Shown in pieces: positions 16,714 through 18,966 of a stretch of 41,970 nt of DNA. The stretch lies in the NCBI GenBank assembly GCA_023475225.1, contig JAMCVK010000017.1:1-41970 (forward strand). Direction: 5' to 3'. Every line of letters starts with the position of its first letter. The first letter of the stretch is position 1. Made by a program: the position numbers and the translations under genes. Origin of the DNA: Chloroflexota bacterium. GTDB taxonomy: Bacteria > Chloroflexota > UBA6077 > FW602-bin22 > JAMCVK01. Under the pieces are notes generated by a model, which made no database searches, was not told the DNA's origin, and worked only from the letters and a program-made list of their open reading frames with translations.

Positions 16714-16742
16714 TTGACAGCAGACAAAGGGTGACCTAAAAT
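16714..16742 (+). promoter_or_regulatory. Promoter of the multihaem cytochrome operon
   Basis: TTGACA (16714-16719), a 17-bp spacer, then TAAAAT (16737-16742). The -10 box covers the in-frame ATG at 16741, so that codon cannot lie in the transcript. Translation should start at 16801 or 16804, just after AGGAGGG at 16792-16798. This is one of the strongest promoters in the window by consensus. Confidence 0.6.
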
Positions 16743-16803
16743 GAGGCTAATTCGGGTCGCCGGGAATTTCAACTACGATAGGGGTAATCTCAGGAGGGTA
16801 ATG

Positions 16804-18057
16804 ATGCCCAAACTAGTGTGGGGGATGCTCGCACGCACCGTCATTCCACTTTGGTTACGCCGCTTCAGCCTGATCTTGGGTGTTGCGGTGTTTTTTCTGG
16901 CTCTCATCCCGGCCGTCGCGAATGCTCAGCCTGGTGTTCCTCATACCCTGGAGAACCGCAGCAACTGTTTGCAATGTCATGGGCCGGGAGGCATGAAACC
17001 GGTCCCGGCCGACCATGCCGGTCGGGGGAACGATACCTGTTTGTCCTGTCATCGGCCTGCTCTGGGGCCAAGCCCAACTGTTGTGTCTGCGACGCCCACC
17101 CCTGTTCCCACAGTGGTCCCTGCGATGCCTACACCCACTCCAGCGATTACGCCTATGGCCCCTATCCGCACGCCCGGAGAGCCCACGCCGCTGCCGAGTC
17201 CAACCATTACACCCTCTGTCCCGGCTCCCACTGCACCAGTGCCCAGTCCTACCACGGTTATGCCACCCAGTCCTACTCCTACTCCAGCGAAGGTTGGTGT
17301 GGTGAGTGCTGGCTGTCGTAGGTGCCACACCAAACCAGAGTTCACCCACGTGGCCTTATCTACCGCTCCTCCCCCAGCCAGCGTGGAGGAAGCTCAGGCG
17401 CAAAGGGTGTACGCTCATCGTTTCATCGAGTGTACGTCCTGTCATAGTGAGGATCCACACAAGCAGATGGCGCCGGTGACGAAGGTGTCTATAGCCGAAG
17501 CCTGTGGTCGCTGCCACACCTTTGAGCTTGCACTGCATCGGGGTAGCGTCCACGGCCAAAGCCTCGCCGCAGGTGGCCGTGACGCAGCGTCCTGCGTCGA
17601 TTGTCACAGCACTGAGAATACGCCCCATAGCATCGCTCGTATAATGAGTCCAGACTCTCCCGCCTATCGTCCAAGTATCGCCCATACCTGTGCCCAATGT
17701 CACGCTAAAACGGAGCTGATGGCCAGATACGGGGTACCGACGACGGTGTACAGCTCTTATATGGCTACCTTTCACGGTAAGGCCAACGTGTTAAGTCCCT
17801 ACGAGATCACTCAACATCCCAAGGCTACCTGTATTGATTGCCACGGCTATCACGATATCAAGAGTGTAGAGGCGCCAGATTCACCTGTAAACAAGCAAAA
17901 CCTGGCCAGCACCTGCGGACGCTGTCATCCTGGCGCTGGCGAAAGATTTGCCAGCGGTTGGTTGGGACATAAGGAGGCTTCGCCCAAGGAGTTCCCAGCA
18001 GTATACTTCACGGAACGGTTCTTTTTCTTCTTTACGGCGGCGGTGTTAATCCTCTGA
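16804..18057 (+). CDS. Nine-haem c-type cytochrome, C-terminal membrane helix cut by an in-frame TGA
   Basis: A 417-residue protein starting MPKLVWGM, with AGGAGGG upstream and the promoter above. A signal peptide (core about 22-38) ends near VANA. Nine CxxCH haem motifs start at residues 55, 79, 171, 210, 234, 264, 296, 343 and 371: two N-terminal, then seven after a Pro/Thr/Ser-rich linker (about 87-165). The C-terminus FFFFFTAAVLIL stops at TGA 18055-18057. The same frame then continues FLFMVGLEILAWSMGRKPTYH to a second TGA at 18121-18123, completing one membrane helix with a positive tail. The ancestral protein was therefore about 439 residues and tail-anchored. As the TGA stands, the product loses half the anchor. 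The gene is 102 bp before a cytochrome b gene, an arrangement expected for quinol-linked electron transfer across the membrane. Confidence 0.88.
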   Translation: MPKLVWGMLARTVIPLWLRRFSLILGVAVFFLALIPAVANAQPGVPHTLENRSNCLQCHGPGGMKPVPADHAGRGNDTCLSCHRPALGPSPTVVSATPTPVPTVVPAMPTPTPAITPMAPIRTPGEPTPLPSPTITPSVPAPTAPVPSPTTVMPPSPTPTPAKVGVVSAGCRRCHTKPEFTHVALSTAPPPASVEEAQAQRVYAHRFIECTSCHSEDPHKQMAPVTKVSIAEACGRCHTFELALHRGSVHGQSLAAGGRDAASCVDCHSTENTPHSIARIMSPDSPAYRPSIAHTCAQCHAKTELMARYGVPTTVYSSYMATFHGKANVLSPYEITQHPKATCIDCHGYHDIKSVEAPDSPVNKQNLASTCGRCHPGAGERFASGWLGHKEASPKEFPAVYFTERFFFFFTAAVLIL

Positions 18058-18159
18058 TTCTTATTTATGGTCGGGCTTGAGATTCTGGCATGGTCGATGG
18101 GGCGCAAGCCGACCTACCATTGATGTAATAACTTCGCTATTTCTCCAGGGAGGATAATT

Positions 18160-18966
18160 ATGGCCATTTCATCAAACGAAGCGGTGATGAACGTTCCCCA
18201 ACCTGCAGTGGGTAAGGTGAGAGAGGTGATCGTAGGAAGGGCTGTCAGCCGGGAGATCGTTCGTTTTGATGTTCACCAGAGGGCCCAACATTTGATGATG
18301 ATGGTCTCCTTGCTCCTTTTAGTGTTCACTGGCCTGCCCCAAAAGTTTTATACCCTATCTGTGAGCCAATGGCTTATTGGGGTATGGGGTGGGCTAGACA
18401 GTGCTCGCATGATTCATCGGTCAGCAGCTGTAGTGATGATCCTGGCCTGTGTCTATCACCTAGCCTACCTTATCTATGGTATAGTCGTCCTCAAGCGACC
18501 GTTCCCCGTCTGGATGATTCCTTCCCCGGAAGATTTCCGGGATTTTTTCCAGAATACGGCTTATTGTCTTGGTCTGGCCAAAGAGAAGCCTAAGTTTGAC
18601 CGCTACAGCTACTTCGAGAAGTTCGATTATTGGGCGGTGTTCTGGGGTGTTCCCATAATGGTAGGCACGGGGTTGATCCTCTGGTTCCCCTTGATCGCGG
18701 TCAGATTTCTGCCGGGGGTGGTGGTACCGATAGCCGCTATTGCCCATAGCGATGAAGCGGTGCTGGCAGCTGGTTGGATCTTCGTTATTCATCTCTATAA
18801 TGCCCATCTGGCACCGCACATCTTCCCCTTCAATAAATCGATCTTCACCGGTTGTGTGACCGAGGAGCGCTACAAGAGAGAGCACCCCCTCGAATATGAG
18901 CGTCTGCTTAAGGTGGCAGAGGCTCCAAGGGAAGCACAGGAGGAGCAGGTCCAAGGGGAGGGCTGA
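18160..18966 (+). CDS. Membrane dihaem cytochrome b (FdnI/formate-dehydrogenase gamma-like)
   Basis: A 268-residue protein with four main membrane segments. Candidate haem-b ligands are H39/H44 (RFDVHQRAQHLMMM), H86 (MIHRSA), H100 (VYHLAY) and the paired His in VIHLYNAHLAPHIF near residue 210. The opening FDVHQRAQH and the final helix with IHxxNAHL match cytochrome b subunits of membrane formate dehydrogenases and of Cyt_b/NapC-associated complexes. The tail (about 245-268) is acidic, Glu/Gln rich and cytoplasmic. GGGAGGATAATT precedes the ATG. It should pass electrons between the menaquinone pool and the upstream extracytoplasmic cytochrome; which way they flow is not visible. No catalytic oxidoreductase subunit is adjacent, so the terminal partner lies elsewhere. 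Confidence 0.86.
   Translation: MAISSNEAVMNVPQPAVGKVREVIVGRAVSREIVRFDVHQRAQHLMMMVSLLLLVFTGLPQKFYTLSVSQWLIGVWGGLDSARMIHRSAAVVMILACVYHLAYLIYGIVVLKRPFPVWMIPSPEDFRDFFQNTAYCLGLAKEKPKFDRYSYFEKFDYWAVFWGVPIMVGTGLILWFPLIAVRFLPGVVVPIAAIAHSDEAVLAAGWIFVIHLYNAHLAPHIFPFNKSIFTGCVTEERYKREHPLEYERLLKVAEAPREAQEEQVQGEG

Follow-up and report, generated by a model that had tools for sequence, protein, structure and literature searches.

A gene for a nine-haem c-type cytochrome, carried on a 41,970-nucleotide stretch of DNA from a Chloroflexota bacterium (the window, meaning the whole stretch that was analysed), is interrupted by an in-frame TGA codon, raising the question of whether this codon is an ordinary nonsense lesion or a recoded stop that governs how the protein is attached to the membrane. 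As the first-pass annotation had correctly described, the TGA at 18055-18057 lies halfway through the C-terminal membrane anchor, and the 21 codons that follow it complete the hydrophobic helix and add a basic tail before another TGA is reached. The features of the locus are as follows.

16741 to 18057, forward strand: open reading frame of the nine-haem c-type cytochrome, 438 amino acids with nine CXXCH motifs, cut short by the premature TGA
16861 to 16929, forward strand: hydrophobic signal segment RFSLILGVAVFFLALIPAVANAQ, a likely export signal as judged from hydropathy, with presumed cleavage
18019 to 18054, forward strand: first half of the anchor, FFFFFTAAVLIL, the portion included in the product if the TGA acts as a stop; aligns with the anchors of all relatives
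18055 to 18057, forward strand: in-frame TGA, premature by comparison with all orthologues and acting as a surplus codon in the alignment
18058 to 18123, forward strand: remainder of the anchor and basic tail, FLFMVGLEILAWSMGRKPTYH, with the second TGA; contains the conserved acidic position and raises the profile score by 8.5 bits
18147 to 18153, forward strand: AGGGAGG, resembling a ribosome-binding site, ahead of the cytochrome b gene (direct reading)
18160 to 18966, forward strand: cytochrome b of the b561 / formate dehydrogenase gamma kind, 268 amino acids, with Pfam and NCBIfam matches; conserved as a neighbour

By direct reading, the frame that contains the TGA starts at the ATG at 16741, and the 21 open codons lie in this same frame between 18055-18057 and the second TGA at 18121-18123. 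All nine haem motifs and the remainder of the 438-codon gene are intact, the signal segment reaches a hydropathy maximum of 2.61 over 19 residues, and the protein is matched by the Pfam families Cytochrome_C7, Paired_CXXCH_1 and Cytochrom_c3_2. The Pro/Thr-rich linker between the second and third haems (window positions 17070-17310) seems to be longer and of lower complexity than in most relatives.

The anchor identity of the peptide encoded after the stop was originally argued from its hydrophobicity, and this argument holds only in part. The 12-residue hydropathy after the stop (2.05) ranks second among the sufficiently open ORF ends of this genome, at least 21 open codons follow the stop at 21 of 58 ORF ends, and the top rank (2.22) belongs to the natural end of a dihydrolipoamide-dehydrogenase-like gene. 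Hydrophobicity beyond a stop is by itself weak evidence, because the latter gene naturally ends before an equally hydrophobic chance stretch. Codon-usage likelihood gives no guidance on the 63-base tail, whose +2 frame scores higher. Homology makes the stronger case. Against a hidden Markov model built from the anchors of 30 relatives, with the window excluded, the score of the window rises from 63.5 bits for the part before the stop to 72.0 bits when the continuation is included, a gain that was equalled by none of 1000 shuffles of the tail, by five of 1000 shuffles that preserve the hydrophobic block, and by one of 1000 random open 21-mers from the genome. Judged by this profile match, the peptide encoded after the stop is the other half of the anchor, and more than a chance continuation.

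The same cytochrome was found by protein and profile searches in many genomes of the phylum, drawn from a phylum listing and a class-wide sample that both lie outside the window's GTDB family, and the C-terminal ends of 37 orthologues were read in detail. Every one of these carries an uninterrupted anchor: a complete hydrophobic helix (37/37) is followed by an acidic residue (36/37) and then by a basic tail, while the window lacks this complete C-terminal transmembrane helix and tail, its TGA falling after half the helix. The first-pass annotation had counted orthologues that all end at the point corresponding to 18055-18057 as evidence against its reading; instead, all of them continue past it. 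Among the matches listed from the phylum and the class-wide sample there is no other stop inside the anchor and no TGA ahead of the basic tail; where other matches show TAA, TAG or TGA, the codon is a natural end behind that tail (checked in L092, L101, L117, L119 and L143-L149). The relatives whose cytochrome b partners are closest to that of the window (L095, L120, L121 and L122) share the anchor motif VHVELDLLRW (LHVELDLLRW in L095), whose histidine falls within the membrane helix and has no counterpart in the window. A second orthologue (L099 / G042:C174, also L006 and L020) bears an in-frame TGA elsewhere, downstream of the signal peptide and ahead of the first haem motif (PHTIEG*DNCLTCH), at a position occupied by Arg in the compared relatives. 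That about 37 copies include two unrelated lesions, each a single TGA, is probably a coincidence or the result of draft-assembly error.

The alignment also bears on how the stop arose. At 36 residues beyond the WxxH histidine, 36 of 37 relatives have an acidic residue (35 Asp and one Glu) and the remaining one has Gln; the window places its Glu at this position only when the TGA is left uncounted. The profile score of 72 bits climbs to about 76 when the stop, or any one of a few residues close by, is deleted, and falls when a residue is taken out of the phenylalanine run. The window's anchor is thus apparently one codon longer than that of any relative read, in an alignment that does not fix which triplet is the surplus one, and this suggests that a single codon was gained in frame together with the stop. 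Such a surplus codon is better explained by a genuine mutation than by a miscalled base, and it also argues against the read-through of a position that the relatives use as sense.

The damaged gene belongs to a conserved pair, as the adjacency of the multihaem and cytochrome b genes is kept in 30 of 30 relatives tested. The partner in the window matches the Pfam family Ni_hydr_CYTB with 38.9 bits and the NCBIfam model formate-DH-gamm with 59 bits, the latter under its cut-off, and is up to 54% identical to the partners of relatives. Between the complete multihaem frame and the start codon of cytochrome b lie 36 bases, which include a good ribosome-binding site. The locus is part of a widespread two-gene respiratory unit consisting of a nine-haem cytochrome and a membrane partner. 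It shares gene order, haem motifs, C-terminal anchor and partner family with the 30 pairs of multihaem cytochrome and formate-dehydrogenase-gamma / b561-type cytochrome b in the relatives, and differs from them in the stop inside the anchor, which only the window's copy has. A described system of similar composition is CbcL of Geobacter sulfurreducens, in which nine c haems are joined to a six-helix di-haem b domain that draws electrons from the quinone pool (PMC9129911). The likeness, that of a nine-haem periplasmic c part combined with a membrane cytochrome b, is one of description and not of membership: CbcL is a single fused chain, whereas the window has two adjacent ORFs, the c part with its own single C-terminal helix, and with the c and b parts on separate ORFs an assignment to CbcL was rejected. 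The genome also encodes a 532-residue multihaem paralogue with an intact C-terminal anchor (G000:C26:19864-21462; L087:4865-6463) that adjoins a cytochrome b6-like gene, and thus has a possible substitute for the broken cytochrome.

The most likely explanation is that the stop is an ordinary recent mutation, private to this genome. That the TGA is simply not recoded, whether it is a fixed lesion, the allele of one strain or an error of the consensus, taken jointly, is very probable. An erroneous consensus or an allele of a single strain would look identical to a fixed lesion in the assembled sequence, and each is counted here as a sub-case. The lesion would be young, because the continuation is still recognisable as an anchor, and not part of a general decay, because other long genes were matched in the genome without such interruptions. 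Rapid evolution of multihaem cytochromes is reported for Geobacter and Shewanella (PMC12977616), which would make an occasional broken copy unsurprising. It speaks against a plain lesion that an anchor kept intact behind the stop is also what a long-lasting switch would predict.

A genetic code with UGA reassigned was rejected. TGA is the commonest stop, ending 26 of 58 long ORFs, and the RF2 gene prfB is present (506 bits), so that the genome uses the standard code, consistent with the original exclusion of a changed code. The classic site of programmed +1 frameshifting, CTTTGAC, is retained in prfB itself (L090:1440-1560, G000:C38).

Site-specific decoding of the UGA is a separate matter. 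In the form proposed by the first-pass annotation, regulated or leaky read-through would switch the cytochrome between a released and an anchored form; more broadly, read-through of the UGA, or a ribosome skipping the surplus UGA, would yield a minority of anchored cytochrome and a lineage-specific partition between membrane and periplasm. UGA is the leakiest stop in bacteria, the anchor and its basic tail are preserved behind the stop, and the genome does contain a UGA-reading tRNA. This is tRNA-Sec (72 bits, anticodon UCA; G000:C45:53793-53887, L043), one of the two kinds of tRNA that the first-pass annotation had proposed to look for, and with SelB (371 bits; G000:C14:75391-77238, L124) it implies that some UGA codon of the genome can be decoded as selenocysteine. 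The other kind, a suppressor tRNA, is absent among those of the 44 tRNA matches to the Rfam model that were read with ARAGORN, and tRNA-Sec is the only UGA-reading tRNA found. In bacteria, read-through of UGA has been traced to tRNA-Trp with a 4-base-pair stem or with suppressor changes (PMC13092985). The window shares with these systems an in-frame UGA with a preserved frame behind it, but the tRNA-Trp(CCA) of this genome has A9, G24 and a complete five-pair anticodon stem and is without the changes reported to raise UGA decoding (PMC13092985); a UGA-misreading tRNA-Trp of the four-pair-stem type was accordingly rejected by sequence. RF2 retains its normal frameshift site, no stimulatory RNA was detected downstream of the stop, where folding is worse than that of shuffles (z +1.1 and +1.0), and no Rfam family matches in the window. 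No relative among those listed shares the stop, and its decoding would insert a residue absent from every relative read. With the stop unconserved, no suppressor tRNA, no unusual fold and an anchor one codon too long, the proposed switch finds no support, and a minor anchored form produced by read-through is considered very unlikely. Still more remote, and scarcely credible here, is a selenocysteine site at 18055-18057. The presence of tRNA-Sec and SelB speaks for it, but the site is unlike a selenocysteine site: no SECIS hairpin follows the UGA, as the 51 nt downstream are matched or surpassed in folding by 179 of 200 shuffled versions, none of the aligned relatives has Cys opposite the stop, the residues around that position being Gly, Met, Leu, Phe and Ala, and the codon sits in the middle of a membrane helix. 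Neither a Sec-containing formate dehydrogenase nor SelD, sought as a positive control, was found in the genome with the two models tried. A search of viral contigs gave no match.

Two further explanations leave the code untouched. The organism's real gene may have a complete anchor with no stop, the TGA being an error of consensus or assembly; this overlaps with the sub-case counted above and is unlikely, though the best placed of the rivals. The stop occurs in one assembled genome only, with all relatives intact, and the draft assembly is split over multiple contigs and has 3.37% contamination. Against this, the anchor seems to carry a full extra codon, whereas simple errors of base calling take the form of substitutions or single-base indels, and the frame is preserved on both sides of the stop with no other examined gene of the genome interrupted. 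Conversely, the shortened protein may be a stable, selected product, serving as a soluble or loosely held shuttle and leaving cytochrome b as the sole membrane part. Other multihaem cytochromes of similar kind are soluble, and the nine haem motifs, the export signal and the partner gene are all intact, but no relative lacks the anchor and the untranslated remainder is undecayed, which would have left little time for selection. This outcome is rated improbable, somewhat more so than an error of consensus or assembly.

If the stop is an ordinary nonsense lesion, a mechanism for its effect can be outlined. The intact gene product would be the exported nine-haem half of a quinone/cytochrome module, held by one C-terminal transmembrane helix, and by analogy with CbcL, electrons drawn from quinol by the cytochrome b would be delivered to this anchored multihaem protein on the outer side of the membrane. 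With the lesion, which keeps the frame and apparently adds a net single codon reading TGA, translation would stop when only about 12 of the helix's 22 or so residues have been made. The truncated product is predicted to be exported with a hydrophobic stub of about 12 residues but without the basic stop-transfer tail, and may be weakly held by the stub and cytochrome b, released, or degraded. Traces of the full-length protein could still arise from basal misreading of UGA.

If the stop is a plain lesion, it would have little importance beyond annotation, where automatic pipelines would call a shortened soluble cytochrome and miss the membrane attachment of the family. Should read-through prove true, the locus would represent a rare bacterial case in which one stop codon decides the anchoring of a respiratory protein.
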